Origin: Flaviramulus sp. BrNp1-15
GTDB lineage: Bacteria > Bacteroidota > Bacteroidia > Flavobacteriales > Flavobacteriaceae
NCBI RefSeq assembly: GCF_022259695.1
Contig: NZ_CP092099.1
Coordinates: 2,588,471-2,652,470, forward strand
Length of the DNA: 64,000 nucleotides
Direction: 5' to 3'
Shown here: one piece after another, positions 4,755 to 61,128 of the stretch
Position numbering within the stretch: position 1 is the first letter of the stretch
Layout: every line of letters starts with the position of its first letter
Notes under the pieces: model-generated
What the model saw: only the letters and a program-made list of their open reading frames with translations
Databases searched by the model: none
What the model was told of the DNA's origin: nothing
Translations under genes and position numbers: made by a program

Positions 4755-5467
4755 TGCATAACAAAAACATATCGTGTTTAATTGTTGATGACGAAATTAT
4801 TGCCCGCGAGGTTATTGCTACTCATTTATCAAAAATTAAAAACATAAACGTAGTTGCTAGCTGTAGTAATGCACTTGAAGCTTTTAATTGTATAAATACT
4901 TATAATATTGACCTTGTTTTTCTTGATATTAACATGCCAGAAATATCTGGAATTTCGTTTGCAAAGTCTATAAACAAAGACATAAAAATTATTTTCACTA
5001 CGGCTTACAGAGAATACGCAGTTGAAGGTTTTGAACTTAAAGCAGTAGATTATTTATTAAAACCTATTGCTTTTGAGCGTTTACTCAAGGCAGTTAACAC
5101 CTACTTTGAAACACTTCATCATTATGAAAAAAACACTGAAACCAATACCGAAGTAAACGATTTTATTTTTGTGCGTTCTGATAGAAAAATGATAAAAATT
5201 GATTTTGATTCTATCATTTATATTGAAAGCTTAAGTGATTATTTAAAAATACATTTAGAAGACAAAACTATTATTACCAGAGAAACTATAAGTGCAATTG
5301 AAGCAAAATTACCAAATAAGAAATTCCTTAGAATACATAGATCATTTATTATTTCTCTAAAACATATTTCGTCTTTTACTAATGATGAAATAACTATTAA
5401 TAACAAATCTTTATCAATTAGCAGAAGTTATAAAAAAGAGGTTTTGCAAATCCTTGAAAAATTTTAA
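4754..5467 (+). CDS. LytTR-family response regulator
   Basis: The ATG at 4754 overlaps the kinase stop by one base and is preferred over the TTG one codon upstream; the product has 237 residues. An N-terminal receiver domain has the acidic pair Asp12-Asp13, the phospho-acceptor Asp58 (LVFLDINMP), Thr83 and Lys103. The C-terminal LytTR DNA-binding domain, about residues 138-236, carries the typical FIFVRSDRKMIKI, YIESLSDYLKIH and FLRIHRSFIISL segments. Proteins of this type bind pairs of direct repeats upstream of their targets. The adjacent kinase is its obvious partner; targets are not shown by the sequence, but the promoter region of its own operon holds an inverted repeat. Confidence 0.95.
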   Translation: MHNKNISCLIVDDEIIAREVIATHLSKIKNINVVASCSNALEAFNCINTYNIDLVFLDINMPEISGISFAKSINKDIKIIFTTAYREYAVEGFELKAVDYLLKPIAFERLLKAVNTYFETLHHYEKNTETNTEVNDFIFVRSDRKMIKIDFDSIIYIESLSDYLKIHLEDKTIITRETISAIEAKLPNKKFLRIHRSFIISLKHISSFTNDEITINNKSLSISRSYKKEVLQILEKF

Positions 5468-46422: not shown

Positions 46423-48288
46423 ATGAAAAAGATTTTTATCATTTTACTATTTCTCATAACTCCATACGTTTCTCTTTCACAAAACACAAAACTTATAGAT
46501 AGTTTAAAGCTTGAACTAAAAAACAGAAAAGTAGATGATACCGTAAAAGTTAGTATTCTAATTAGTTTAAATGAGAAACTTAAGTACTCAAAACCCGAAG
46601 AAGCCAAAAATTATGCACTTAAAAGTCTAGAAATCTCTAAAAAAATAAACTATAAATTCGGTATCGCTTCTGGAAATATGCACATTGGCGACCATTACCT
46701 AAATAGAAATCAAAATGATTCTGCACTACACTATTACAATATTTCAAAAAAATATTTTAAAGACATTAATTATATAAGAGGTCTTATTTTTGTGAATCAT
46801 GCTATGTCCATTGTTAAAGAGTCTACTGGAGAATTAGATAAAGCTATAGCCATTACCAGAGAAACATTAAAACTAATTAATGAACATGAAGAGGATAGCG
46901 ATTCAAAAACAAAATTTATAGGCGCACAACATGACGCACTCTCTATTAGATATACAGAAAAAGGGAACTATAAAATTGCACTTATTGAAGCTTTAAAAGC
47001 CTTAAAATGTTTTGAAGAAATAAACGACGACTATAGAAAAGCTGGAGTTTTACAACAAATAGGTCAAATAGAAGCCAGTTTAAAAAACTACAAAACTTCA
47101 ATTAAATACTATAAAGAAGCTATAGATATTTTTAATAAAGAAGAAGAAATATGGTCTTTAACCTATGCTAACATTTCTCTAGGTGCAGCTTATCAAAATT
47201 TAGAAGATTATGAAAAAGCTAAAAATTGCTTTGATGCCGCAATAGATTATGCAAAAAAAGTTGAAGATAAAATGGCTCTTGCCGAAGCCTTAAATTCTTT
47301 GGCTTCACTAGAATTAATTAACAAAAACTATTCTAAAGCAAAACAACTGTTATTAGATTCTAAGGAAATTTCAGAAACAGAGAATTTACAACTAAGTCTA
47401 GCTAATACCTATCAAAATTTAGCAGAAATAGAGTACTACAACAATAAATATTCAACCGCTTTAAACTATAATGATGAAGCTATAAAACTTACAAAACCCA
47501 ATAATGCTTTGCCATATTTAAAAAGATTTTATGGGTATCGCTCTAAGATACTTCAAGCGCTAAAAAAATATGATGACGCTATTTTTTATCTAAACGAATC
47601 TCAAAAAATTAGTGATAGCCTATATTCAGTTACAAAAACACAACAATTAGAAGAATTAAAAACCATTTACGAAACCGAGAAAAAAGAGCAAGAAATCTTA
47701 CTTCAAAAAAATGAAATTGACCTTTTAAAACAAAAAGGAGAAATAAATAATCTTTATAAAATTTTATTTGGTATTGGGTTTTTACTGTCACTAATTGCAT
47801 TTTATGCTGTTAGACAAAAATTAAAACGGAGTAAGATTGAACGTGAAAAATTAGATTTAGAACTGGATTTTAAAAAGAAAGAGCTCACCACACATGCTTT
47901 ACACCTTGCAAAAAAGAATGAAGTTTTAGAAAGTTTAAAGCAACAAGCAAAAGATTTTAAATCTTCTGAAAATAGTGTTAAAGGTTACAATCAATTAATT
48001 AGAACCATTAATTTTGATTTAAAAGATGATAACAACTGGGAAAACTTCAGTAAATATTTTGAAGAAGTACATAAAGATTTTAATAGTAATGTAAAACAAC
48101 AATTCCCTAATGTAACTCCAAATGAATTAAGACTTATGGCTTTATTAAAAATGAATTTATCTTCAAAAGAAATTGCTAATATCCTTAACATATCTCATGA
48201 AGGGATTAAAAAAGCACGCTACAGGCTCCGTAAAAAATTAGGGATCACCACTGAAGATTCTTTACAAGACCTTGTGTTTAACCTTTAA
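46423..48288 (+). CDS. TPR sensor protein with membrane helix and LuxR-type HTH
   Basis: Starting at the ATG at 46423 the protein has 621 residues; a TTG two codons earlier is not needed. A signal peptide is followed by tetratricopeptide units to about residue 400 (GDHYLNRNQNDSALHYYNIS, ALKCFEEINDDYRKAGVLQQ, NLAEIEYYNNKYSTALNYND). One membrane helix (FGIGFLLSLIAFYAVRQ, about 445-465) and a coiled coil follow, and the C-terminus is a LuxR/NarL-type HTH: NELRLMALLKMNLSSKEIAN, ILNISHEGIKKARYRLRKKL. In Bacteroidota this architecture senses in the periplasm and acts on DNA from the membrane. It is the closest regulator gene to the surface-protein locus that follows. Confidence 0.93.
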   Translation: MKKIFIILLFLITPYVSLSQNTKLIDSLKLELKNRKVDDTVKVSILISLNEKLKYSKPEEAKNYALKSLEISKKINYKFGIASGNMHIGDHYLNRNQNDSALHYYNISKKYFKDINYIRGLIFVNHAMSIVKESTGELDKAIAITRETLKLINEHEEDSDSKTKFIGAQHDALSIRYTEKGNYKIALIEALKALKCFEEINDDYRKAGVLQQIGQIEASLKNYKTSIKYYKEAIDIFNKEEEIWSLTYANISLGAAYQNLEDYEKAKNCFDAAIDYAKKVEDKMALAEALNSLASLELINKNYSKAKQLLLDSKEISETENLQLSLANTYQNLAEIEYYNNKYSTALNYNDEAIKLTKPNNALPYLKRFYGYRSKILQALKKYDDAIFYLNESQKISDSLYSVTKTQQLEELKTIYETEKKEQEILLQKNEIDLLKQKGEINNLYKILFGIGFLLSLIAFYAVRQKLKRSKIEREKLDLELDFKKKELTTHALHLAKKNEVLESLKQQAKDFKSSENSVKGYNQLIRTINFDLKDDNNWENFSKYFEEVHKDFNSNVKQQFPNVTPNELRLMALLKMNLSSKEIANILNISHEGIKKARYRLRKKLGITTEDSLQDLVFNL

Positions 48289-48308: not shown

Positions 48309-48356
48309 TGTCCACCATTTGTCCTTGGTATTAAATTATATGTCCACGGTTTGTCC
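48309..48356 (+). promoter_or_regulatory. TGTCC direct repeats with 11-bp period upstream of the cadherin-like lipoprotein
   Basis: TGTCC occurs at 48309, 48320, 48341 and 48352. The pairs TGTCCACCATTTGTCC and TGTCCACGGTTTGTCC each have an 11-bp period, and the pairs are spaced by 21 bp (two turns). Similar repeats lie at 60242-60269 and 60994-61020. This arrangement is typical of tandem binding by a response-regulator-like protein. It lies 157-204 bp before the ATG at 48513. Confidence 0.6.
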
Positions 48357-48512
48357 ATTACAAAATACAAATCGCATAAAATCAATACATTAGGTTTGTT
48401 GTGTCATTAATTTGGCAATACAGTTTTGTGGTGTCTTGCACTGGTTTAGGCTGCAGATATAACCTGTTGCAAGCGCTACAAAAACCAAACATTAACCACA
48501 AAACAATGTATT

Positions 48513-49463
48513 ATGAAAAATTTATTCAAATTCGCACTTATTACAATGCTTATAACTTTATGTATATCGTGTAGCAAAGATGAAGAAACATTTATACCGA
48601 GTGCAAGCGATATTAATTCTACTATTGATGAAAATCCATCAACTGGAACAACTATTGGAACTGTTGCTACCAATTTAACTGGTACTCTAAATTACAATAT
48701 TGTATCAGAATCTATTACAAATGCTTTCTCTGTTAATAGTAGTGGTGTTATAACTGTAAAAGATGCTTTAGTTTTTGATTATGAGGCCACAACAAGCTTA
48801 ACAGCTACTGTTTCTGTAACTAATTCATCAGAAACAGCAACTTCCAAAGTAAGTGTATCATTAAATGATGTAGACGATATTATGTCATTTTTATCAACTT
48901 CTAGATCTGCTTATGAAGCTGCCACTAATAATAGTTGGATTCAAATTACTTCCGAAGAATACAATAGTCTTGCCGAATCCTTAAACCAAGTTTTTAGATC
49001 TGGAACAACAGAAGAAGAATACAACCACTCAAATACCACCCAAAACTCAGGAGGAGGACTTTACACCATAACCAATTCGCAACAGCCACCAATGCCAACA
49101 GGTAGTATTGTTTTTGCATTTAGATACAGAACTACAACAGGAGGTTCAATTTCTGGGAATAAAGTTAAACTTTCAAACACTAGTAACAACAGTGGTTTTG
49201 AAGACATAGGTACTGTATTACCTGACCATAATGCAATAGAAGACGATGTCTTTTTTGTTCTAAAAGGAAATGATGTAAAAACAACAGCAGAAGGTTACAT
49301 AGCTATAATGATGGCTTCTGGAAACGGAATAGGTTATAAAACCATTTCTGGAAATGACACTTTTAATGTAGGTTTCGATGACGGCCCTGAATTAAATGAT
49401 TCTAGAAGTGGAGCTAAATTTTTATTTCAAGGTTTAAGTAGTACGCAAAAACAATGGGATTAA
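48513..49463 (+). CDS. surface lipoprotein with cadherin-like domain
   Basis: This encodes 316 residues. The lipobox LITLCISC gives Cys20, followed by SKDEE, an acidic stretch as in exported surface lipoproteins. A cadherin-like domain spans about residues 32-125 (SDINSTIDENPSTGTTIGTV, ITNAFSVNSSGVITVKDALV, FDYEATTSLTATVSVTN). The C-terminal 190 residues are beta-rich and unassigned. It is monocistronic, ends in a strong bidirectional terminator, and is preceded by the 11-bp-period TGTCC repeats. Confidence 0.88.
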   Translation: MKNLFKFALITMLITLCISCSKDEETFIPSASDINSTIDENPSTGTTIGTVATNLTGTLNYNIVSESITNAFSVNSSGVITVKDALVFDYEATTSLTATVSVTNSSETATSKVSVSLNDVDDIMSFLSTSRSAYEAATNNSWIQITSEEYNSLAESLNQVFRSGTTEEEYNHSNTTQNSGGGLYTITNSQQPPMPTGSIVFAFRYRTTTGGSISGNKVKLSNTSNNSGFEDIGTVLPDHNAIEDDVFFVLKGNDVKTTAEGYIAIMMASGNGIGYKTISGNDTFNVGFDDGPELNDSRSGAKFLFQGLSSTQKQWD

Positions 49464-49489
49464 GTTTTAGTTTTTGAGTTAGTTAGTTA

Positions 49490-49524
49490 AAAAAAGACTG
49501 TGCGAAAAAAGCACGGTCTTTTTT
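49490..49524. terminator. bidirectional terminator between the cadherin-like gene and bshC
   Basis: AAAAAAGACTGTGC (49490-49503) and GCACGGTCTTTTTT (49511-49524) form a stem with one U-G wobble and a 7-base loop. A-run and T-run flanks serve both converging genes; the right arm overlaps the last base pairs of the bshC stop codon region. Confidence 0.82.
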
Positions 49525-51124
49525 ATAAAGTTATAATTGAAAACTCATTTTTTAAGGGTTGTAAACTTTCACTCAATTTTTTAATTAGCAATTCACCGTG
49601 TTCTAAATAGAATTCTGAAAAATTTGATTGTCTTTCTTGTAAGCTTTGATTTGGAAATAATTCATTTTGCAAATCTGTCATTCTTGAAACATAATCTGCC
49701 AATTTTCTTTTTTGAGCTTTTAACAAACGTTTTTCAAGACTCTCTAATCCTTTTAATTGCTTTGTTTCTTGAGCTTTTACCGCTCCTAAAAAAGACTTAT
49801 CAGTTTGTTCTGCTATTTTATATAAATCTTTAAATTGTTCTTGTAAATATTTTTTTTGTGGTGAAAAATCTATGTCAAGATTAGATATTTCTCTTACTTT
49901 CTTATTGATAAACAAATCTCTTCTTAAAAATAAATCTTCATTAGAAATATTTAAATTTTCGAGTTTTTTATGCTGACTCTCTTTTTGAAGTAACACCGAA
50001 TTTCGCAACAATAATATAGGAAAAGGCACCTCAACTTTATTAAAGTACGTTTTTAATTGAAACCAATAAGCCAACTCTCCACCACCACCAATATAACAAA
50101 GGTTAGGTAAAATGACTTCCTGATACAAAGGTCGCATTATTACATTTGGAGAAAAACGTTCTGGATGTTCTGAAACTTCTTTTAAAATTTCATTCTTGCT
50201 CCAAGAAATATTAGTATTTAAAACTTTGTAGACCTTGTCTTCAACAACAATACGTTCTCTTGAATTATCGGTTAAATAAAATAAATTAATTTCTCTTGGG
50301 TTTACCTGTATTTTATAATCTTCAGGCAATTCATTAATTTGTTTGTTGGTTTTAGAAACAGATTTAAAAGATGTTTGATTAAGTAATTCTTCTTCAATAA
50401 AAGGGATAAATTGTTTCTTTAAATCAACATTATCAGCATCAATTATAACTAAACCATAATCTTTAAATAATTCATTTACCAAAAAACGTGTAGCTTCGGC
50501 TAAAGTTTCATGTTTTAAATATGCTTCTTTGAAAAGCGTTTTTAAATACACAGCATTCTTAGAGTTTCCTAATTCGCTGGAATACACTTTAAAAACACTT
50601 TCTAATTCCTTAGTTAATAATCTACCTACACCTCCACTTGCATCTTTATTCCACTGTATTTTTTTTCCTTTAAAATTGAAAAAATTAATCTCATCAAAAT
50701 CATGATCTTCAGTTGCCATCCAATAAATTGGCACAAAATTATATTCTGGATAAGTTTCTTTTAATTGTTTAGTTAAATTAACTGTAGAGATAATTTTATA
50801 CAAGAAATAAAGCGGACCTGTAAATAAATTAAGTTGATGCCCAGTAGTAATTGTAAAGGTGTTTTCAGATTTTAAACTTTCAATATTTTGAGCGGTTGAA
50901 CTGGAAACTTCAATACCCTTATTTTGATTTAAAAGAATATTGGAAAGCAATTCCCTTGTTTCCTTTTTAAAAGCATTATGCTTTTCTTCTATTTGGGATT
51001 TAAAATTCTCTATGTTCGGGAATCGATTGTAAAATGGTTTTAAATCTGAATTTTGTTCTAAATAATCACATATTAATGATGAGAAATAGCCCGTTTTGTT
51101 GAAAGGAATACTGTTTTGCTGCAT
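49523..51124 (-). CDS. bshC: bacillithiol biosynthesis cysteine-adding enzyme BshC
   Basis: Starting at the ATG ending at 51124 the protein has 533 residues, the family length; an ATG six codons earlier (51142) is the alternative. Recognisable family parts are LICDYLEQNSDLKPFYNRFP near the start, TITTGHQLNLFTGPLYFLYK, VPIYWMATEDHDFDEINFFN and NVIMRPLYQEVILPNLCYIG with GGGELAYW. BshC adds cysteine to GlcN-malate to give bacillithiol, the main low-molecular-weight thiol of Firmicutes and some Bacteroidota. The bshA/bshB genes are not in the window. Confidence 0.95.
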   Translation of the reverse strand: MQQNSIPFNKTGYFSSLICDYLEQNSDLKPFYNRFPNIENFKSQIEEKHNAFKKETRELLSNILLNQNKGIEVSSSTAQNIESLKSENTFTITTGHQLNLFTGPLYFLYKIISTVNLTKQLKETYPEYNFVPIYWMATEDHDFDEINFFNFKGKKIQWNKDASGGVGRLLTKELESVFKVYSSELGNSKNAVYLKTLFKEAYLKHETLAEATRFLVNELFKDYGLVIIDADNVDLKKQFIPFIEEELLNQTSFKSVSKTNKQINELPEDYKIQVNPREINLFYLTDNSRERIVVEDKVYKVLNTNISWSKNEILKEVSEHPERFSPNVIMRPLYQEVILPNLCYIGGGGELAYWFQLKTYFNKVEVPFPILLLRNSVLLQKESQHKKLENLNISNEDLFLRRDLFINKKVREISNLDIDFSPQKKYLQEQFKDLYKIAEQTDKSFLGAVKAQETKQLKGLESLEKRLLKAQKRKLADYVSRMTDLQNELFPNQSLQERQSNFSEFYLEHGELLIKKLSESLQPLKNEFSIITL

Positions 51125-51197
51125 ATTCAAAATAAAAATCATGTAAATATACAGCTATTCTATTTTTTGAAATCTAAAAATTTCGTTAAGAGTTTAT

Positions 51198-51911
51198 TTA
51201 TTGAACTCTAAACTGAAAAACACCAGAATCAGAAGTATTACCTAATGCATCTCTAGTAATTATTTTCCAATAGTAAATAGTTCCAGAAGTTACTGAAACT
51301 GTTGTTTCTGTAGTATTAATGTTTGATGCATGAATATCATTTGCGGTTTCATTTGTTCCAAAATAAACATCGAAACCTGCAATATCATCATCTACATCAC
51401 TAGCTGTCCATTGCAAAGTCACTGTATTAGTAGTTGGTATAGATTCTGCCATTGAAGGTGAAACTATTTCGGCAGGAAAAGGCGCATAAGATTGTGCTCC
51501 TGGACCAGCATTATAAAATTGCCATGTATCACTTTGTTCAGTTGTAGAACCTAAAACAGATTCAACAAACCACTTATAGGCTGTAGCCCTTTGAATAGTT
51601 ATAGGGATAATATCCTCGTTAGTTTCTCTTTGAATTACGTTGCTTGTTGATAAATTTTCAATGGTTATTATATAATTATCGGCTCCGTTTGCTCGCCATT
51701 CAAAATATACCGTACTTTCAGTAGGTGTTAAATTTGTACCTTCATTACATAACATATTCTCTTGCGGAAAATATAATTTCACCCCAGAAATTGTTTCTTC
51801 ATTGCCATTACCATCATCAGGATTTTCACCATTAGGATCGTTTCCATTAGAAGATTTACTACATCCAAAAACTAAAAAAGTCAAACAGAAAATATATACT
51901 ACTTGTTTCAT
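51198..51911 (-). CDS. lipoprotein with fibronectin type III-like domain
   Basis: This encodes 237 residues. The lipobox TFLVFGC gives Cys17, followed by a Gly/Asn/Asp-rich spacer (SKSSNGNDPNGENPDDGNGN). Two beta-sandwich units follow; the second (about residues 145-237) ends in TTVSVTSGTIYYWKIITRDA, a fibronectin III-like pattern (a 'how it would look on the cell surface' domain). Its ATG overlaps the stop of the leucine-rich protein gene (ATGA, 51908-51911), so the two are translationally coupled and probably work together on the cell surface. Confidence 0.85.
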   Translation of the reverse strand: MKQVVYIFCLTFLVFGCSKSSNGNDPNGENPDDGNGNEETISGVKLYFPQENMLCNEGTNLTPTESTVYFEWRANGADNYIITIENLSTSNVIQRETNEDIIPITIQRATAYKWFVESVLGSTTEQSDTWQFYNAGPGAQSYAPFPAEIVSPSMAESIPTTNTVTLQWTASDVDDDIAGFDVYFGTNETANDIHASNINTTETTVSVTSGTIYYWKIITRDALGNTSDSGVFQFRVQ

Positions 51912-54900
51912 TTTTTTACAATTTTAAATGTTCTTAATGATTCTTTTGATTGAACAGATATTGTATAAAATCCAATTGAAAAACCTTCTGTATTAAGTTC
52001 TAAAATATCTATCTTTTGGTTTGTTAAGGTTTTAGAATACACTAATTGCCCTAAATAAGAATACATTTTTATGGTTATGTTTTCTCTATCAAGTTCTCCT
52101 AAATAGAGGTTTATTTTTTCCTTAAACGGATTAGGATAAGCCAAAATCTTATCTGACAGAAAAATATTTTCTTCATAAACACCTTGACATTCTTTATCTG
52201 TACTAACTTTTAGTGAATTTATCCCATTTTGCAAGCTTAATGTAACGGATGAATCTGTTGTGTTAAATTTCAAGCCATTAAAATCAATGTTGTAATTAGA
52301 GCTACCAGACATATTTATAGAAACTTGTTTACCGTTAGAAGATTTACCTGTTGTAACATCTAATGGTTCTGGTTGAATAATTACAATATCATAACAGCTC
52401 ATATAATTTGGCCATTCTTCAATAGTGATACACATTTGGTAAGTACCAGCCAATAAATTTAATATGTCAATTTCTGTGGTAAAATGATATTCTTTTGAAA
52501 AATCTTCACCAGTTAAAGTTGCTGTGTAATTGTAATATTCTAACGTTGAAATATTAATTTTTCCGTTATTATTATTTAAGCAGGTTTCACCAGTAATTAA
52601 AATAGTGAAATTATTGTTTGGCAAACTTAAAATGGAACACCCGAATAAATCAACAGGATCTCCAAAAGGTGTATTTGGACATTGGTCATCTGCATTAGCA
52701 ACACCATCATTATCGGCATCTTCGCAAATAGTTTGGTAATTTGCTGAAGCATCTTTATACCAACCGTTGTAAGTACCATCACTATTTGAAATGACTGCAA
52801 CAGGATCATCAACCAAAATACAAGCCAAATCTGGATTATTAGATGCATTGAATGTTTTTAAATTTTCATTGTTTCCATTCTGAAGATTTAACTGGTCGCC
52901 AACCAAGAAATTAGATTGACAATACAAGGTCACCAAATTTGGGTTTAACGTGACATGTAATGCTGTTAATTGATTGTCTGAAACATTTAAAAGTTGTAAG
53001 CCGGTGAGATTATCAACATTCAAATTGGTTAACAAATTACTCGACACGTCTAAACTCACCAAATTTACATTTGAAGCGACATCAATTTCAGAAATTGTAT
53101 TTTCTGAAATGTTTAAGTTCAATAAATTCGTTAGAGTTGACACATCTATTGAAGCTAAATTATTAGCTGAAACATTTAAACTTGTAAGAAGCAAATTATT
53201 GCTTAAATCGATAGTTGTTAACGCGTTGCCTTGAAAATCAAGAGTTGTTAACGACACAAAACCTTCAATACCTGTTGCGTCTAAAATACCGCTATCACTA
53301 ACATTCAATGTCGTTACATTAGTAATATTTGAAGTCGGTATATAATCATCTAAAGTGCCTGAATCGAATCCTAATGAGATAAGAGCTTCCTCAAAAGCAT
53401 CATCAGGCACATAGGTTTCACCGTAGCGACACTCAAGAGAATAATTGGCAGTAGCATCTTTTAACCAAGTTACACCACTAGGAACTGTACCAGTATCAGT
53501 TTCAATACAGGTTAAAGTGACGTTATTTTGCGTATTAAGGTCTAATAAGTTAGGATTCTGACCGTTTTTAAGGTTTAAAATCTCTAATGCATTTGATGCG
53601 CAACTCACATTAACCAATAATAGATTTTGTTGAAAATCTAACTCAATTATAGCATTAAAATCACAATTGAAACTAGCTAAATTAGGTAGAATACTAGCAT
53701 CAAATAACGTAAAAAGATTGTTGGATATATTTAAATTTGAAATATTGATAGCTTCAGAAAGATTTAACTCATCTAATGTGTTATTAGAGCAATTAAGTTC
53801 AATCAAATTAATATTTTCAGTTAAATCAATTTCACTTAAATTATTGTTTGAACAGTTTAAATTTTGAAGCGCTGTAAAATCTTCAATTCCTGTTAAATCA
53901 ACGATATTATTTCCGCTGATGTTTAAATTCGTTATCACTTCAATGGTTGTGGTTAAGACATAATCATCTAGCGCTCCTGCATCGAAACCTAAATCTATTA
54001 GAGTCTGTTCAAAATTATCATCGGGCACGTATGTTTCGCCAAATCTACAGTTTTCACTGAACTCAGTAGTGGCATCTTTAACCCAATTTTCTGGAATGGT
54101 GTTAACATCATCAACTTGTATACACGTTAAATTCGGGTTGTTACTTGCGGTAAAATTTAAAATATCACCGTTAATTCCATTTTGAATGTTGACAAATTCC
54201 AATTGATTGCCAGATACGTTTATTGTAATAGCATCTGGACAAAAATCTAATGGATTATCTTCATTTTTTGCTGGACATGCACCAATTCCTAAAGTTGATA
54301 AATCAAAATCGCCAGCAATTTGGTTACTGCTACAATTAAATGTTTTAAGCTGGTTTAAATTAGTAGGAAGTAACAAATCTGTTAACTGATTATTGCTAAC
54401 ATTCAGTTCAATTAAATTGGTATTAGCGCTTACATCCAACGTTGTTAGTTCATTACTTGAAATTACTAAATATTTCAGTATGAGGAAATTGTTAAGCAAG
54501 GTAGTTAACTCACCAATTTGATTATTATCTAAAACCAAAGCTTCTAGAAGAGGTGAATTTAAATCATTGATTTCAGTTAATTGATTTTGTGATCCAGAAA
54601 CAGCTATTAAGTTTACTTTTCCAGATAGATTAACATCTGTTAAATCGTTATTTGAAAAATCTAAAACTTCCAAAGCATTATTTGAGGTTATATCTAACAT
54701 CGTCAACGAATTAGACCTACAGTTTAAATCTATTAAAGCTGAATAGTTAGTTACAGAAAGTGTGCTTAAATCGTTATTTGAGCAACTCAAATTAGTAAGT
54801 GTATTATTGTTAGTTGCAACTGTAGATAAGGTTGTTATAAGATTACTGTCACAATTAACCTCAACCAAATTATTGTTATTACTTATATCTAAAACAGTTA

Positions 54901-57355
54901 ATTTATTGTTAGCACAGTCTAATGTTTCCAAATTGGTATTTGGCGCTATGTTTAAATCACCCAAATTGTTATCTGCGCAAAACAAGGTCGTTAAATTAAC
55001 TGTTCCTGTAGTATTCAATAACCCGTTTGTATTGGCTGTATTATTGGTTAAAAAGTAATTGGAACCGCAATACAGGTTTTGTAAATTAACCATATTGCTT
55101 ACATCCAATTCATTTAGGTAATTGTTACTACAATCCAATTCTGTTAAAGATGCAAACGCTTTGATACCTTCTAAACTTTCAATGTTTTTTCCGCTAACGT
55201 TCAATGATGTAAGATATTCAATATTTGCAGTGAGTACTTGATTATCCAATGCTCCAGAATCTATACCTAAGTCGATTAAAGCTTGTTCAAAATTATCATC
55301 TGGAATGGTTGTAAACCTGTTAGTTTCACAATCGGAATTATAACTAGCAAAAGCATCTATTGTCCAGCCTGCTGGTATATTTCCAACTATGGCATTATCA
55401 ACATTTATGCAGAATAAATTCAGATTACTTGTGGCATCAAAAACAGTTGTATTGGTGTTGTTTCCGTTTCTTATATCAACAAATTCAAGTGCATTATTGT
55501 TACATAAAATACTGGTTAAAGCGGTATTTGCTGTAAGATTAAGTTCAACAATGGTATTATCTGAACAATCTAAATCTGTCAACGCTATAAAATCTTGAAT
55601 ACCTGTAAAATCTACAATACCATAATTGCTCACATTTAAGTTAGTTTCTGCGCTAATATTAACCGTTGGCACATAATTATCTAGTGGTGCAACATCTAGC
55701 CCTAAATCGATTAAAGCTTGTTCAAAATTATCATCTGGAATATACGTTCCACAATTTACAGCGTATGAAGCCGTAGCATCTACACTCCATGTAACAGCTC
55801 CTGGAACTGCTCCAGTATCGGTTTCAATACAAAATAAATCAGGGTTGTTTATGGCTGAAAAATTTAAAAGATTGGCGTTTTGTCCGTTTTTTAAGTTTAA
55901 AGATTGTAATGCATTGGCATCACAATTTAAATTGATTAATGCTGTAAGATTACTAAAATTGAGAGACGATATCGTATTGTTTGAACAATTTAAATCCGTT
56001 AAAGCTAGATTATTTTCTATGTTCAATTCATCTAACATATTATCCGAAACACCCAGAGTGGCTAGATTGGTAAGATTGCTTAAATCAATAGTAGATAAAT
56101 CGTTATTAGAAATATTGAGGTTTATTATAGCTGAGTTATTTGAAATATCAACGTCCTCCAGATTATTCATACTGCAATCCAAGGTTTGAAGTGCCATAAA
56201 ATCTTCAATACCTATAAGGCTTTCAATAGTAGCATTTGAAATATTTAATGTGGTTATTCCATCAATATTTGCTGTTAGCACTAAGTTATCTAGAACATCA
56301 TCGTAACCCAAATCGATTAAAGCTTGTTCAAAATTATCATCGGGAACGTAAGTGTAAATATCTGTACAAGTGGTTTCTCCAAAATAGGTCCAGTCATCTT
56401 TAGTCCAATTGGTATTTGGAGCAAATCCTGTATCAATTTGAATACAAAATAAATCTGGATTGTTTTCAGAAGTAAATGAGGTTATTAAATCATTATAGCC
56501 ATTCGCAACAATTAGAGATGTGAGTTGATTATTAGACACATTGATTGAAGAAGCACCTTGACAAATAGTGATGGGATCGGTTTGAGGGTCTGGACAGGTA
56601 ACTGTATTTATAGTACTTAAATCTAAATTGGAAATTAAATTACTTGAAACATCTACGGTTTTTAAAGACGTATTTATCGAAAGATTTAAATTTGAAATTT
56701 GGTTTGAGGCACAAAATAAACTTTCCAGATCCAGATTATTGGAAAGATCTAAACCAGTAAGTCTATTGTTAGAAACTGCCAAAAAGCTTAATATATTATT
56801 TTGGCTCACATCAACATCAATTAACCTGTTATTTGAACATGTAACGCTTTGTAATAAATTGTTGTTAGTGATATCTAAAGTTGATAATAAGTTACTTGAA
56901 CAATCCAACACTTCTAATGCAGTATTAGAGGCTATATCTAAGCTTGTTAAATTATTTAGCCCGCAGAGTAATGTTTTTAAATTTAAATTAGCTGATACAT
57001 TAATTGTAGCTAAATTATTATTGTCGCAAGCCAAAGTTTCTAAATTAACAAAATCCTCAATCCCATCAAGATTAGATATATTTTGATAACTCATGTTTAG
57101 TGAACTAACATTTTCAATATTTGCAGTTAAAACCAAACCATTATTTGCTATACCATCACCCATACTTGAAGCATCTCCGATATCAACAATGGCTCCATTT
57201 GTATTGTGTGTTTCTAGATAATTTTCAAAATTTGTATCAGGAATAGGTGTTGTTTGAGAATATGCTTGCGGAAGTAAAAACAACAACATACAAGTGTTCA
57301 CAACAAAGCTTATTGCTAAATTATTTTTAAAACCGATAAATTTTTCTGGCATCAT
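51908..57355 (-). CDS. giant leucine-rich-repeat protein with T9SS C-terminal sorting domain
   Basis: Starting at the ATG ending at 57355 the protein has 1815 residues. A signal peptide is followed by six blocks that open with (Y)VPDDNFEQALIDLG(FD) (first block: PIPDTNFENYLETH), each followed by short leucine-rich units of the SLDCSNNxLTxLDLS type. Near the C-terminus DADNDGVANADDQCPNTPFG is a thrombospondin type 3-like calcium motif, then a beta domain, and the T9SS sorting signal ILAYPNPFKEKINLYLGELD through the last residues. It is exported through type IX secretion and displayed or released at the surface. It overlaps the lipoprotein gene downstream and follows the tail-fibre-like gene by 31 bp. 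Confidence 0.93.
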   Translation of the reverse strand: MMPEKFIGFKNNLAISFVVNTCMLLFLLPQAYSQTTPIPDTNFENYLETHNTNGAIVDIGDASSMGDGIANNGLVLTANIENVSSLNMSYQNISNLDGIEDFVNLETLACDNNNLATINVSANLNLKTLLCGLNNLTSLDIASNTALEVLDCSSNLLSTLDITNNNLLQSVTCSNNRLIDVDVSQNNILSFLAVSNNRLTGLDLSNNLDLESLFCASNQISNLNLSINTSLKTVDVSSNLISNLDLSTINTVTCPDPQTDPITICQGASSINVSNNQLTSLIVANGYNDLITSFTSENNPDLFCIQIDTGFAPNTNWTKDDWTYFGETTCTDIYTYVPDDNFEQALIDLGYDDVLDNLVLTANIDGITTLNISNATIESLIGIEDFMALQTLDCSMNNLEDVDISNNSAIINLNISNNDLSTIDLSNLTNLATLGVSDNMLDELNIENNLALTDLNCSNNTISSLNFSNLTALINLNCDANALQSLNLKNGQNANLLNFSAINNPDLFCIETDTGAVPGAVTWSVDATASYAVNCGTYIPDDNFEQALIDLGLDVAPLDNYVPTVNISAETNLNVSNYGIVDFTGIQDFIALTDLDCSDNTIVELNLTANTALTSILCNNNALEFVDIRNGNNTNTTVFDATSNLNLFCINVDNAIVGNIPAGWTIDAFASYNSDCETNRFTTIPDDNFEQALIDLGIDSGALDNQVLTANIEYLTSLNVSGKNIESLEGIKAFASLTELDCSNNYLNELDVSNMVNLQNLYCGSNYFLTNNTANTNGLLNTTGTVNLTTLFCADNNLGDLNIAPNTNLETLDCANNKLTVLDISNNNNLVEVNCDSNLITTLSTVATNNNTLTNLSCSNNDLSTLSVTNYSALIDLNCRSNSLTMLDITSNNALEVLDFSNNDLTDVNLSGKVNLIAVSGSQNQLTEINDLNSPLLEALVLDNNQIGELTTLLNNFLILKYLVISSNELTTLDVSANTNLIELNVSNNQLTDLLLPTNLNQLKTFNCSSNQIAGDFDLSTLGIGACPAKNEDNPLDFCPDAITINVSGNQLEFVNIQNGINGDILNFTASNNPNLTCIQVDDVNTIPENWVKDATTEFSENCRFGETYVPDDNFEQTLIDLGFDAGALDDYVLTTTIEVITNLNISGNNIVDLTGIEDFTALQNLNCSNNNLSEIDLTENINLIELNCSNNTLDELNLSEAINISNLNISNNLFTLFDASILPNLASFNCDFNAIIELDFQQNLLLVNVSCASNALEILNLKNGQNPNLLDLNTQNNVTLTCIETDTGTVPSGVTWLKDATANYSLECRYGETYVPDDAFEEALISLGFDSGTLDDYIPTSNITNVTTLNVSDSGILDATGIEGFVSLTTLDFQGNALTTIDLSNNLLLTSLNVSANNLASIDVSTLTNLLNLNISENTISEIDVASNVNLVSLDVSSNLLTNLNVDNLTGLQLLNVSDNQLTALHVTLNPNLVTLYCQSNFLVGDQLNLQNGNNENLKTFNASNNPDLACILVDDPVAVISNSDGTYNGWYKDASANYQTICEDADNDGVANADDQCPNTPFGDPVDLFGCSILSLPNNNFTILITGETCLNNNNGKINISTLEYYNYTATLTGEDFSKEYHFTTEIDILNLLAGTYQMCITIEEWPNYMSCYDIVIIQPEPLDVTTGKSSNGKQVSINMSGSSNYNIDFNGLKFNTTDSSVTLSLQNGINSLKVSTDKECQGVYEENIFLSDKILAYPNPFKEKINLYLGELDRENITIKMYSYLGQLVYSKTLTNQKIDILELNTEGFSIGFYTISVQSKESLRTFKIVKK
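53390..57250 (-). repeat. block repeats within the leucine-rich protein gene
   Basis: Six copies of the block-opening sequence encoding PDDNFEQALIDLG or a variant lie near 57240, 56340, 55735, 55300, 54020 and 53400. Three of them (about 55267, 55701, 56309 onward) are almost identical over about 40 bp (GATTAAAGCTTGTTCAAAAT then TATCATC). They can mispair and make the gene length unstable. Confidence 0.8.
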
Positions 57356-57386
57356 TGACAATTGAATTTAAAGTCAAATTTTTAGG

Positions 57387-59618
57387 TTAGTGTTTGCCTT
57401 TGTTGTTTTCTTTATGATAATGAATCTGTTTATCAAACTTTTCTTTTAGCTTCTGAATAGTTTTATTTTTAAAGGCTAAATCGTTTTTAATTTTATTCCA
57501 AAACATATCATTTTCATAATCAACACCATCTGCGCGCATTTGTTCTTCGGCCATTTTCAAACCTAATTCAAAATCTTCATTGGTAATTTCCCAGTACACG
57601 ATTTCGCCTTCATCAGTGTCTACTATTTCATAATCTCTATTGCCATAATAATTCTCCAATTTGTTTTCATCATGATTGGCATTATCTTTCTTAATATGAG
57701 TTGTATCATTTTCTTGAAGAATATTTAATATATCTGATATTTGCTTTTTTAAGTCACTAATTTCTTGAGCCTGTTCTTCTATTTGTTTTTCTAAATTTTG
57801 TACAATAACATTATTATCGTTTCTATTTACGCCAACAGCAGTATTTACCAAATTAAAACCAGAAATATTATTGCTTTCAGACCATGCAGTACCAACTATG
57901 CTAGGTATTTGATTTGACTTGATCTTAGAAGGATGAACCGCTATTCCAATACCATCATTTTTTCCACTTGGTATAATGTAATCTCCAATTTTAACTTGCC
58001 CAAAGACTTTAACGGGTACTTGCCCCATAAAAGCTACTTTTTCATACTCATTTTCCCTGTTACTCTGTGGCATATTGCCCAATACAATAGGTTTTAAGGA
58101 AACTACCATAATCCTTTCTGCTCCTATTAGGTTTTTAGATATCTTCCCACCTTTTACACCAACCAAATCACCATAAGTCATTTTTTCTTTTATGTTTTCT
58201 CGCAATAAATACTCTGCATAATCTCCAGCACCTGAAGCATAGGTTACTCCTTGATATTCGATTTTATTAGCATCATAAGTATCTCTATTATCGTATGCTC
58301 TATTTCTTGCTTGTATAGCAGCATACTCTTTTACCGCCACCAATGCCACTGATAAAATTGATGCCGCTATATCTGAAAATCCTGGACCTGTCGTACAGGC
58401 TCCAAAGCCTAAACATGGTCGAAAATCTGTATATGTTGCCGCTAAATCTGCAGCTTCAATAGCAATATCAATAGACGCCCAGGTTAAATCTAAATTTGCA
58501 TCTAAAATATCATAATCTAACGAAGATTGATCGAACAAATAATCGGCATTGTTTCCAAATTCATCTGGTATTTCTCCTTCAATACGTCCATGAAGCGTTG
58601 GGTATGCAAAAGCACCATCATCCCAAAAAGACACATAATTATTGCCGTTTCTTCCATATCCATTTACTTTTATAGCTATTCCCTGTGTACTGCCCTGAAC
58701 TAATAACGGGTAATTTTCTATGTATTCACCGGGATTTTCTTCACTATCAACAATTTGTTCGTAAGGCGCGTCTGTAGTATAATTTATTGGATCGGTATGT
58801 ACTGTAGAAGTAATAGTGACTTGTTGTTCCGTATCTATATCTACATCTCCTTCAAGTAGCGCTGAATTATTCACCGTTAAATCTTGTACCGTTAAACCAG
58901 TAAATATTGACTCACCAACCACCGATAAAGAACCGTTTAAAATGGTTGGCGCATCTAAATCTCCATCTGGTGGACCTATTAAAGAGTCGCCAACTATTAA
59001 AGCGCCTGTTAAATAGGTTGTGCTTTTATTGTTAACATTTAAGATATTGTTAAGTTTTGTTTCACCATCAACTGTTAAATCACCTGATAAATTTGATTCA
59101 TTACCATTATTTACTAAAAGTCTACCGTTTAAATTTGTTTGCCCGTTAACGGTTAATTCTCTATTTAAAAATGTATCGTCATCAACATCTAATGTTCCTG
59201 TTGCTGTTATATTTCTATGATAAGCGTAAGGTACAAACGTAAGTACTTCTCTACTCATATCTACAAAACTATTTCCATTTCTAAAATCGATATCTACTTT
59301 TAAATCTTTAGAGGTACCATCCCAACTTATTTTTTCAAAATCGTCATGTTCTACAGCTCCTATGATTAAATTTATTCTTCCAAACTCATCAGTAGTTGTG
59401 GTTTGTACTTCTTGAAATTCTATTTGGTTGCCAGAATCAAAAATGGTAAATCTAATATCTACTGTTGTAGATGGTAAATAATTACCTTCTGAATCTACAC
59501 CTGGTAATTCCAGAACATCTGGACCAATAATAACAGCTTGATAACTTATACCATCGGTTTGAGCAAATGATTTTAAGGTTAAAAAAAGGAATAATCCTAA
59601 GGTTAGTATACGTTTCAT
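57387..59618 (-). CDS. secreted tail-fibre-like protein with peptidase G2-like C-terminal region
   Basis: This encodes 743 residues with a signal peptide (LTLGLFLFLTLKSFAQ). After an N-terminal beta domain (to about residue 135), residues about 140-275 hold repeated short strands (ELTVNGQTNLNGRLLVNNGN, SNLSGDLTVDGETKLNNILN) like a trimeric tail-fibre stem. Residues about 460-600 contain GDYAEYLLRENIKEKMTYGD, VGVKGGKISKNLIGAERIMV and GQVPVKVFGQVKIGDYIIPS, similar to the peptidase G2/auto-processing domain of phage tail spikes; catalytic residues are not assigned. A coiled coil follows (ENLEKQIEEQ-like, about 605-650). It precedes the T9SS leucine-rich gene by 31 bp. Confidence 0.8.
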   Translation of the reverse strand: MKRILTLGLFLFLTLKSFAQTDGISYQAVIIGPDVLELPGVDSEGNYLPSTTVDIRFTIFDSGNQIEFQEVQTTTTDEFGRINLIIGAVEHDDFEKISWDGTSKDLKVDIDFRNGNSFVDMSREVLTFVPYAYHRNITATGTLDVDDDTFLNRELTVNGQTNLNGRLLVNNGNESNLSGDLTVDGETKLNNILNVNNKSTTYLTGALIVGDSLIGPPDGDLDAPTILNGSLSVVGESIFTGLTVQDLTVNNSALLEGDVDIDTEQQVTITSTVHTDPINYTTDAPYEQIVDSEENPGEYIENYPLLVQGSTQGIAIKVNGYGRNGNNYVSFWDDGAFAYPTLHGRIEGEIPDEFGNNADYLFDQSSLDYDILDANLDLTWASIDIAIEAADLAATYTDFRPCLGFGACTTGPGFSDIAASILSVALVAVKEYAAIQARNRAYDNRDTYDANKIEYQGVTYASGAGDYAEYLLRENIKEKMTYGDLVGVKGGKISKNLIGAERIMVVSLKPIVLGNMPQSNRENEYEKVAFMGQVPVKVFGQVKIGDYIIPSGKNDGIGIAVHPSKIKSNQIPSIVGTAWSESNNISGFNLVNTAVGVNRNDNNVIVQNLEKQIEEQAQEISDLKKQISDILNILQENDTTHIKKDNANHDENKLENYYGNRDYEIVDTDEGEIVYWEITNEDFELGLKMAEEQMRADGVDYENDMFWNKIKNDLAFKNKTIQKLKEKFDKQIHYHKENNKGKH

Positions 59619-59646
59619 AATAGGGTTAATTTTAGTAAGTGGTAAT

Positions 59647-60162
59647 TTATTTTTTTATGAGTTTTGCGTTAAATAGTTTATTGTTGGATCGTACTTTTAA
59701 AAAATATGATCCGCTAGAAATATGATTAAGATTTAGCTCTATATATTTTGATGGTGAAAAATTTCGATTATAAATAAGTTTTCCTGCTACATTAAAAACT
59801 AAAACTGAAATTTCACTTTCCATATCTTCTGTAAAAGAAATAGAAACAGATTGTTCAAATGGATTTGGGTAAACTGTTGCAGATAAATCATTATTAGCAA
59901 ATCCTGCTTTTTCTACTTTAATTTTATCTATTGGTTGTTGATAGCCTTGTCTTAAATAATAACCATTGTTCGTATAAGTTCCTATAACGCTAGATTGACC
60001 TATACTTTGACTTACAGTATATTTACCCTTACTGGTAGTAATTATTTTAGATGATCCGCTTGTTCCCAAATTAGATCGTACAATAGAATACGATTTAGAG
60101 CTTTGAGCCTGAATTGAAAAAACAAAACAAAAAATAAATACAAAAAGTAATTGTGCTTTCAT
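59647..60162 (-). CDS. small T9SS type A sorting domain protein
   Basis: This encodes 171 residues: a signal peptide (LLFVFIFCFVFSIQAQ), a short Ser/Gly-rich segment (residues about 20-75, VRSNLGTSGSSKIITTSKGK), and a complete T9SS sorting domain from about residue 95 (TVYPNPFEQSVSISFTEDME to the C-terminal KLIKK). It is therefore secreted through T9SS but carries little cargo. It is the first gene of a tightly spaced unit continuing with the tail-fibre-like gene 28 bp downstream and the leucine-rich gene; 11-bp-period repeats lie 80-107 bp upstream. Confidence 0.9.
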   Translation of the reverse strand: MKAQLLFVFIFCFVFSIQAQSSKSYSIVRSNLGTSGSSKIITTSKGKYTVSQSIGQSSVIGTYTNNGYYLRQGYQQPIDKIKVEKAGFANNDLSATVYPNPFEQSVSISFTEDMESEISVLVFNVAGKLIYNRNFSPSKYIELNLNHISSGSYFLKVRSNNKLFNAKLIKK

Positions 60163-60241
60163 TAATTTAACTTTTTAAATATGAATGCATTAGCTTCAAC
60201 AATAAGTCTAAACTAGTACAATAGTTACTATATTAAAAGGA

Positions 60242-60269
60242 TGTCCATACTTTGTCCACCTTTTGTCCA
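60242..60269 (-). promoter_or_regulatory. three TGTCCA direct repeats with 11-bp period upstream of the T9SS operon
   Basis: TGTCCA occurs at 60242-60247, 60253-60258 and 60264-60269 (minus strand TGGACA), exactly 11 bp apart. They lie 80-107 bp upstream of the small T9SS protein gene on the minus strand. Confidence 0.65.
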
Positions 60270-60286
60270 CTAAATAGACAGCATTT

Positions 60287-60931
60287 TTAAAAATCGCATG
60301 AACAATTTGGTAAGTTTATAATAAACCCTATTCCAAATTGATGTGCATTTAACTTTAATTTTTCGGCATTTTCACCACTACTTATTAAAACAGACTTACC
60401 ATAAGAATAGCCTGCATAAATTGCGGTAGTATTTGAAATTGGGTATTGTATGCCAACCCCAGCTCTTAAAAACAAGATATTATTATTAAATTCTTCCTCT
60501 CCTACTAGATTAAACACATCATTATTTATGGTTTGGTTTCCTCTTATTAAAAACTCTGATGCAATAGACCCCTTTGCATAAAACGATAAATCTCTTAATT
60601 GAAATAATCTATAATCTAAACCTGCTCGAACGCCCAAATAACTCACATCCCATTCAAAAAAATTATCTACACTACTTTCGCTACCTATGGCTCCATAACT
60701 ATTATATGATGCACCTAATGCTAAAAACAGTGTTTTTTCACTATTAATAACTTGCCGGTAACCCATACCAAAATAAGATTGAGATTTAGACAAAAGATTA
60801 TCTAGAGGTAGTCCTTGTGAATTTTCATAATCAAAGGATGAAATAGTAGAACCAAGCTCCATATATAATTGTTGACTGAAGCTTGAAATACTAATTGAAA
60901 AAATAAGTATTGTTAATAATTGCCTTTTCAT
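60287..60931 (-). CDS. outer membrane beta-barrel protein
   Basis: This encodes 214 residues with a signal peptide (LLTILIFSISISSFSQ). The mature part has alternating hydrophobic/polar strands of an eight-strand porin-like barrel: FGMGYRQVINSEKTLFLALG, YLGVRAGLDYRLFQLRDLSF, AGVGIQYPISNTTAIYAGYS and HQFGIGFIINL. The C-terminus ends NCSCDF, with two Cys, so the usual final aromatic residue follows two cysteines. It may be a small OprF/OmpX-like protein. The repeats at 60994-61020 precede it on the minus strand. Confidence 0.85.
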   Translation of the reverse strand: MKRQLLTILIFSISISSFSQQLYMELGSTISSFDYENSQGLPLDNLLSKSQSYFGMGYRQVINSEKTLFLALGASYNSYGAIGSESSVDNFFEWDVSYLGVRAGLDYRLFQLRDLSFYAKGSIASEFLIRGNQTINNDVFNLVGEEEFNNNILFLRAGVGIQYPISNTTAIYAGYSYGKSVLISSGENAEKLKLNAHQFGIGFIINLPNCSCDF

Positions 60932-60993
60932 ATTGTTATATATCTGTCACCAATTTAAATGTAACTCACTATAAAACAAATAAATATCTATTA

Positions 60994-61020
60994 AGTCCAT
61001 AATTTGTCTATGACTTGTAA
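60994..61020 (-). promoter_or_regulatory. degenerate 11-bp-period repeats upstream of the barrel gene
   Basis: AGTCCA (60994-60999), TGTCTA (61005-61010) and TGTAA (61016-61020) are spaced 11 bp apart, and a further TGTCCA lies at 61070-61075, 54 bp on (five turns). They lie 63-145 bp upstream of the barrel gene start at 60931 and between it and the divergent TerC gene. Confidence 0.45.
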
Positions 61021-61128
61021 GCTTAAAAGTTATAAATCTTTGAAAGATGTAACTTCAAACTTAAATACTTGTCCACTATTAAATAGTTTGAAACTTTTAT
61101 TTCTCTGAATTATTAATTGGTTTTTAAG

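Follow-up and report, generated by a model that had tools for sequence, protein, structure and literature searches.

A stretch of 64,000 nucleotides of the genome of Flaviramulus sp. BrNp1-15 (contig NZ_CP092099.1, positions 2,588,471 to 2,652,470), referred to here as the window, carries TGTCC repeats with a period of 11 bp near genes for exported proteins. The question raised by this locus is which protein reads these repeats and what it does there. The repeats are real, and a function is most likely. Judging from the comparison of sequences, they are very probably operators of the neighbouring membrane-anchored regulator, which would activate genes for surface proteins. The features around the first repeats are listed below with their window positions.

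46423..48288, + strand: predicted membrane-anchored one-component regulator with signal peptide, TPR solenoid, one membrane helix, coiled coil and C-terminal GerE helix-turn-helix (HTH)
48309..48324, + strand: operator pair 1a, TGTCC-N6-TGTCC, 32 bp upstream of pair 1b
48341..48356, + strand: operator pair 1b, whose first T lies exactly 50 bp ahead of the -7 box
48391..48398, + strand: sigma-A -7 box TAGGTTTG (TAnnTTTG), inferred transcription start at about 48403
48402..48504, + strand: structured leader RNA that follows the -7 box and precedes the lipoprotein gene (38-sequence alignment A1)
48402-48406/48413-48417, + strand: leader helix P1
48423-48430 and 48433 with 48496-48504, + strand: leader helix P2b
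48435-48443/48464-48473, + strand: leader helix P3 with conserved GGCTGCAGA apical loop
48513..49463, + strand: target lipoprotein of 316 aa with a single cadherin-like domain; its C-terminal half is conserved and ends in KQWD

Repeats, promoter spacing and linkage to the regulator

All repeats quoted in the initial annotation were found again in the sequence. They are TGTCC at 48309/48320, 48341/48352 and 60242/60253/60264 (+ strand coordinates), AGTCCA/TGTCTA/TGTAA at 60994/61005/61016, and a solitary TGTCCA at 61070. The last had been read as part of the array; it has no partner at 11 bp and no role is assigned to it. Four exact TGTCC recurrences occur at lag 11 on the + strand of the window, and the other lags between 6 and 39 that gave recurrences (21, once; 22, once; 32, twice) have the same two clusters as their source. 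The window pattern with at most one mismatch has four matches, where shuffling gives 0.92 on average and reaches four in 2 of 100 cases. These window statistics are modest by themselves, and it is the comparison between genomes that carries the case.

A genome-wide search for period-11 pairs had been proposed earlier. Across the whole genome (3.58 Mb), exact TGTCC-N6-TGTCC occurs five times against two in the reversed control, and TGTCCA-N4-TTGTCC four times against none. Four of the five exact pairs lie inside the window and the fifth at C1:2422590, about 240 bp from the gene of a regulator paralogue (C1:2422844-2424718). All five are at the loci of these two regulator paralogues, two of them about 12 kb from the window regulator. 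An operator followed at 50 bp by the -7 box without any mismatch is found in this genome at 48341 alone. With at most two mismatches the pattern occurs at only two genomic places, both in the window, namely 48341 and operator 2 (described below) read rightwards with two mismatches. Beyond the two loci, at most three mismatches give 25 genomic matches against 23 in the reversed control, and no added target is claimed. The genus Flaviramulus is represented by this one genome in the searched collection.

The comparison set consisted of 299 genomes of the family, with at least 150 operator places among the matches listed. TGTCCANNNNTTGTCC is present in 112 of these genomes. Regulator homologues (E ≤ 1e-60) gave at least 89 matches in 56 genomes, where the best four candidates at most were scored per genome. 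Among the 150 listed sites, 56 lie within 20 kb of a regulator match (43 of these within 340 bp) and 90 lie in regulator-bearing genomes. Two layouts were identified. Class 1, the window type, consists of one or two pairs, mostly 20-60 bp past the regulator stop on the same strand. In class 2 the site, often TGTCCATACTTTGTCC, is on the opposite strand and in most cases 200-340 bp upstream.

The period was also recovered by a motif-free test around 88 regulators (G228:C1:26458 lay outside the fetched stretches and was left out), with lags up to 40 and with letters shuffled within 20-base blocks, rather than a dinucleotide shuffle, as the control. Exact 5-mer recurrences at lag 11 numbered 122 downstream (8.9 shuffled) and 200 upstream (35.5 shuffled), with secondary peaks at lag 33 downstream (77 versus 6.2) and lag 35 upstream (104 versus 30.6). 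Two pairs about 33 bp apart are common in relatives. The initial annotation had held that the repeats would be chance or a dispersed repeat if they were equally frequent within genes; inside the genes, lag 11 gave 6 recurrences against 8.7 shuffled. Its reading of 11 bp as an operator period is supported.

Sigma-A promoters of Bacteroidota have a TTG element at -33. No TTG was found in the 33 bases before the -7 box of the window promoter, the one promoter inspected for it. The Bacteroidota -7 box spans -12 to -5, as described in a passage of PMC9723704, which places the operator at about -62 to -47. A perfect TAnnTTTG exactly 50 bp after the first T is present in 30 of 34 class 1 (downstream) sites and in 19 of 39 class 2 (divergent) sites. 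Among 113 distinct sites, which lay in stretches fetched for nearness to regulators or sites, a perfect box stands at offset 50 in 46 and at offset 83 (33 + 50) in nine, and at any other offset in two at most. The spacing was found again in new regulators from named genomes (76 loci, of which 16 were dropped as their genomes had already been used), where 44 of 60 combine an 11-bp tandem with a box that matches at least 5/6 and stands at precisely 50 bp.

The regulator and the letters of its operator

The regulator matches the Pfam families TPR_12 (2.7e-21) and GerE (2.5e-05; 24.3 bits, above the cut-off of 23.5), and no receiver, winged-helix or autoinducer domain was matched by Pfam at E ≤ 0.001. 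Its signal peptide, membrane helix and coiled coil were called by eye from the sequence, and its recognition helix reads ...GIKKARYRLRKK. The AlphaFold2 model (mean pLDDT 78.7, with stretches within 402-533 under 50) exhibits a TPR-like helical array, a long helix at 383-463 and HTH helices, and among the PDB matches shown for it the top ones are TPR proteins, LGN and Rap for example. Sequence and model are both consistent with a predicted periplasmic sensor, a membrane span and a cytoplasmic HTH.

The initial annotation had named this protein as the nearest candidate for one dedicated regulator of the nearby exported-protein units, and both proposals gain support. The candidate is supported by the linkage of the sites to its homologues and by the residue-operator match given below, and one dedicated regulator probably controls these units. 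The comparison with PhoB/OmpR-type regulators was dropped because a receiver domain was not found by Pfam; the HTH is of the LuxR-type GerE kind. A histidine kinase and LytTR response regulator pair, intact by Pfam, is encoded at 3705-5467; it had been put forward as a weaker candidate, and nothing was found that ties it to the repeats.

The own-genome paralogue is 50% identical to the window regulator and is the sole other genomic match at E ≤ 1e-30. At its locus (L008 10568-10830) the operator is kept, no target gene lies on the far side, and no -7 box stands at +50 from the operator. The reading frame that ends beyond the operator is one that we take to be MutS2. By its sequence, this locus looks like one that has lost its target.

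The letters of the operator follow one residue of the recognition helix, the x of KAR[x]R. GTACC operators go with Q in 14 of 14 cases (11 in the first set, three in the named set) and GTCAC operators with N in five of five (four and one). GTCC/GTCT operators go with Y in 91 of 96 (53 and 38) and with Q in the other five (two and three), whose half-sites are AGTATACC/TGTCTCC or TGTCCCC/TGTCCCC. The repeat match is doubtful in one further Y row. These tallies exclude the rows that lack an operator (17 from the first set and 14 from the named set, together 27 Y and 4 Q), as well as L267, whose HTH was not recognisable.

Two trees were compared, from which short regulator matches and all but 15 of the named ones were excluded. 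In the sensor-part tree, built after the last 62 residues had been cut off, residue and operator class switch jointly in nine of nine supported independent pairs (sign test, p 0.004); eight named-row labels had been preset on this tree, and the residues checked afterwards agree in all eight. The tree of the last 160 residues (cytoplasmic part), with the residue masked, exhibits about seven residue changes, of which well-supported branches force only one or two. The sensor-tree result set against the cytoplasmic-tree result indicates that sensors and HTH/operator blocks reassort.

Leader RNA, lipoproteins and further targets

A conserved leader of about 110 nt follows the -7 box. In 38 leaders, 92.6% of the cells of P1, P2b, P3 and P4 pair, and double-changed cells number 59 against 15.6 when shuffled and 10-17 when the partners are slid, with the structure partly derived from the same sequences that were used for the counts. 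Most of the covariation sits in P1 and P3. The P2 strand GTTTTGTG has two alternative downstream partners, P2a in the middle of the leader or P2b before the start codon. Column 49 fits P2b better (35 of 38) than P2a (26 of 38), and P2a as the only pairing was rejected, its covariation not exceeding the shuffles. Most P2 pairs scarcely vary, so neither P2a nor P2b is proven by these alignments. Unguided RNAalifold drew P3 and part of P2, not P2b. The window leader alone folds moderately better than its shuffles (z -2.13; 8 of 200 equally good). An alternative alignment (A2) was rejected in favour of A1 since P3 was aligned worse by eye.

Three leaders scanned against Rfam 15 (to E = 10) match no family at the gathering cut-off, and the leader may constitute a new RNA family. 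A leader model (R1), searched with strict filters by which weak matches are lost, has matches in 32 of the 299 family genomes and in 11 of 395 order genomes, all 11 of the same family. R1 contains no operator. Its 14 sense-strand matches outside the training set have an 11-bp tandem before the -7 box at 50 bp in 13 and at 49 bp in one (G277), with ten exact repeats and four imperfect ones (G266:C2, G175:C9, G214 and G277); 13 of these sites were read in sequence and one was taken from coordinates. That the leader acts as a switch is a conjecture. A structure near the start codon tunes translation in F. johnsoniae, according to part of PMC6847099.

The AlphaFold2 model of the target lipoprotein has a mean pLDDT of 86.0 and is good in only one of five models. 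A crude lipobox test calls lipoproteins in 34 of 37 class 1 targets and 26 of 30 class 2 targets, and six of the seven misses have a cysteine behind a hydrophobic stretch by eye; the same test is positive in 9 of 49 window open reading frames of at least 150 aa. Among 65 targets in relatives (two short target reading frames, L075 and L121, are excluded), 37 match PF01289 Thiol_cytolysin (best 1.8e-82; loci include L070, L073, L092, L102 and L130), three match Cadherin and one matches TSP_3. Other targets, with lengths near 120, 560 and 750 aa, gave no match to Pfam where they were scanned one by one. Three of the 65 targets match the NCBIfam model of outer membrane exchange protein TraB (best 5.2e-07).

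The 299 genomes contain 63 CDC-like (PF01289) genes in 52 genomes, of which 43 lie within 3 kb of a regulator match and 34 within 1.5 kb of a listed operator (either, 51); the operator is upstream and on the same strand in 34 of 34. Four of the other 12 genes lie near a weaker homologue (G266:C3, G212, G104:C6, and G217:C12 by the TPR part only), which brings the genes with a regulator homologue or operator nearby to 55 of 63. No regulator homologue was seen near the PF01289 genes of G096, G251, G153, G056, G023 (two) and G134, and that of G169 was not fetched. By genome, 40 have both a CDC-like gene and the regulator, 12 a CDC-like gene only, 16 the regulator only and 231 neither (Fisher p 5e-26, uncorrected for kinship).

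No PF01289 gene was found in the window genome at E ≤ 1e-10, and the window target matches Cadherin only. In L134 and L179, out of 12 loci with the lipoprotein, a relative of the window lipoprotein immediately precedes a CDC-like gene. In Bacteroides, CDC-like proteins kill related bacteria, and in Bacteroides fragilis immunity comes from an outer-surface lipoprotein encoded beside the CDCL genes, as described in passages of PMC11169675. An accessory or immunity role of the window lipoprotein is a weak lead.

The remaining repeats lie beside an operon with type IX secretion system (T9SS) genes and an outer-membrane protein (OMP) gene, both on the - strand.

51198..51911, - strand: lipoprotein-like protein, fibronectin-III match below cut-off
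51908..57361, - strand: leucine-rich-repeat protein with T9SS sorting domain, 1817 aa
57387..59618, - strand: Peptidase_G2/IMC autoproteolytic-domain match, 743 aa
59647..60162, - strand: T9SS type A sorting-domain protein of 171 aa, encoded first in the operon
60215-60208, - strand: -7-like TAGTTTAG, 5/6, 42 bp from the first G of the proximal operator 2 pair
60242..60268, + strand: operator 2, three half-sites, reverse-oriented relative to the T9SS operon
60287..60931, - strand: outer-membrane beta-barrel protein, 214 aa
60957-60950, - strand: -7-like TAAATTGG, 5/6, 52 bp from operator 3
60994..61009, + strand: operator 3, degenerate (AGTCCATAATTTGTCT), reverse-oriented relative to the OMP gene

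The initial annotation had placed the repeats upstream of three surface-protein units. That they precede exported-protein genes is confirmed, with the qualification that the triple at 60242 and the pair at 60994 run reverse to those genes. The lipoprotein unit is strong and the T9SS operon good; the OMP site is degenerate in the window and clear in most of the other orthologues read. Sites of both further units recur upstream of orthologues, the comparison that had been asked of the promoters. Among 16 regions read for the 171-aa T9SS protein, window included, 12 have a reverse operator with at most one mismatch upstream; the exceptions are L142 with a forward site and L187, L138 and L111 with no site. 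For the OMP barrel the count is seven of nine regions read, that is, seven of eight outside the window. No OMP-upstream reverse operator at this limit was found in the window, where the pair at 60994 differs from GGACA/GGACA by two mismatches, or in L188. The regions read cover 16 of 18 T9SS loci and 9 of 18 OMP loci, with overlapping stretches, partial matches and loci with the OMP gene inside an operon left out, and several orthologue gene starts were set by lengthening the tblastn match.

In 16 of the 20 reverse-oriented regions (12 T9SS, eight OMP), a 5/6 box stands 42 bp (five) or 52 bp (11) from the first G, two distances that differ by about one helical turn; shuffles gave a mean of 0.62 and a maximum of four. 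All 16 boxes are 5/6 matches, none is perfect, and the regions are orthologous rather than independent. This test allowed two mismatches for the window OMP site and at most one for the others, and excluded the regions without a reverse site (four of 16 T9SS regions; L188). The pooled reverse-orientation test of the 113 sites gave weak peaks only (eight at 52, six at 42, six at 66 and five at 62).

Homologues of the T9SS protein, the OMP barrel and the 743-aa Peptidase_G2-like protein (window 57387-60931) recur near regulators at 18 loci each, some in overlapping stretches. Operator 2 can also be read rightwards (60253-60309) with box CAATTTGG and two mismatches, toward the 3' end of the OMP gene.

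Proposed mechanism, alternatives and meaning

From the computed sites, their fixed spacing, their linkage, the leader covariation and the residue-operator match, we infer the binding, the sign of regulation, the topology and the signal as follows. The TPR solenoid would sense a signal in the periplasm, and the cytoplasmic LuxR-type HTH would bind two half-sites separated by one helical turn. From there, at about -62 to -47, the regulator would replace the missing -33 element and activate the sigma-A promoters of adjacent surface-protein genes. Its main target would be the next gene, the lipoprotein, transcribed with the structured leader RNA, and the T9SS operon and OMP gene may be further targets through reverse-oriented operator copies. 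What goes beyond the initial annotation is the type of regulator, the geometry of the promoter, the leader RNA and the presence of CDC-like targets in relatives.

Several results weigh against this assignment. The GerE match is close to the cut-off, and the paralogue in the same genome gave none at E ≤ 0.001. Of the 150 listed sites, 94 lie more than 20 kb from any regulator match at E ≤ 1e-60, 60 of them in genomes without such a match; several genomes without a strong match have a weaker homologue beside the site. By the rule used, 17 of 88 regulators have no operator, as do 16 of 60 in the named set. The recognition residue and the operator are also close neighbours in class 1 loci, and the nine concordant switches may reflect block transfer, such that linkage could explain much of the concordance.

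Among the alternatives, it is unlikely, though the least so, that the regulator binds the repeats and represses, or mainly competes with RNA polymerase. A position near -62 to -47 leaves the sign open and double pairs could loop. The lack of a TTG in the 33 bases before the window -7 box argues the other way, and activators typically bind upstream of a weak promoter. We consider it somewhat less probable still that the repeats are bound by a different protein, such as the LytTR response regulator at 4751-5467, with the TPR/LuxR protein as a mere neighbour; the LytTR pair is intact by Pfam, yet the sites track the TPR/LuxR gene across many genera and the operator letters covary with the TPR/LuxR recognition helix.

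It is quite improbable that the leader RNA, as an attenuator or riboswitch, is the main control and the 11-bp repeats are secondary. The leader covariation is strong, but operator and spacing hold without it, as 27 class 2 operators have a box of at least 5/6 at +50 and the leader accompanies one by a simple signature, to which R1 adds G217:C9. A dispersed or mobile repeat travelling with the genes is hardly credible. Blocks do move, since sensor and HTH/operator parts reassort between loci; against this, only five exact copies exist in 3.58 Mb, at two loci, and the distance to the promoter box is fixed. Operators of the neighbouring TPR/LuxR-type regulator are the reading that we prefer.

The proposed system resembles several known ones in part. 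SusR spans the membrane. SusR-like regulators of Bacteroides sense in the periplasm, activate surface-protein genes and have direct-repeat motifs, with half-sites predicted 67 or 77 bp apart in the passages concerned of PMC3878776; here the half-sites are 11 bp apart, the sensing part is a TPR solenoid and the HTH gives a GerE match. PhoB/OmpR response regulators bind 11-bp tandem boxes as a class, unlike the window regulator in having the receiver and winged-helix domains for which it gave no match. LuxR/NarL-type regulators use paired half-sites and share the C-terminal GerE-type HTH; unlike them, the window regulator has no receiver or autoinducer domain by Pfam and is predicted to be membrane-anchored. 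Its TPR region weakly matches the NCBIfam model of FimS of Porphyromonas gingivalis (5.9e-11, 41 bits versus a cut-off of 600). FimS works with a separate regulator, FimR, in the part of PMC11053733 concerned, whereas sensor and HTH of the window regulator are in one chain. The two-component CDCL toxins of Bacteroidota, whose account names no dedicated transcriptional regulator in the passages concerned (PMC11169675), correspond to the PF01289 targets of relatives and not to the window target. The leader is like Rfam riboswitches and leaders in its covariation and in one strand with two possible partners, and matches no Rfam 15 family at the cut-off. The promoter is like Bacteroidota sigma-A promoters in its TAnnTTTG at a fixed place and unlike them in the -33 TTG. 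No description of this operator, leader or regulator was recognised among the papers listed by literature searches, which covered few subscription papers.

A wider proposal is tentative and rather doubtful. Marine Flavobacteriaceae may have a modular, fast-diversifying control of surface weapons, built from interchangeable TPR sensors and HTH-operator-leader-lipoprotein cassettes. A single recognition residue (Y, Q or N) would set an insulated operator code in these cassettes, the sensor would read rival damage or contact, and a two-state leader, with its second partner just before the start codon, would add control of CDC-like pore-forming and accessory lipoproteins. If this is true, the window genome would have kept the regulator and an accessory or immunity-like lipoprotein and lost the pore former.

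The correspondence of Y, Q and N to GTCC, GTACC and GTCAC is a natural set for studying a DNA-recognition code. Surface-lipoprotein genes, many of them CDC-like, now have a probable regulator, operator, promoter geometry and leader RNA across many genera of Flavobacteriaceae, and the regulation of CDC-like proteins in this family becomes directly testable.

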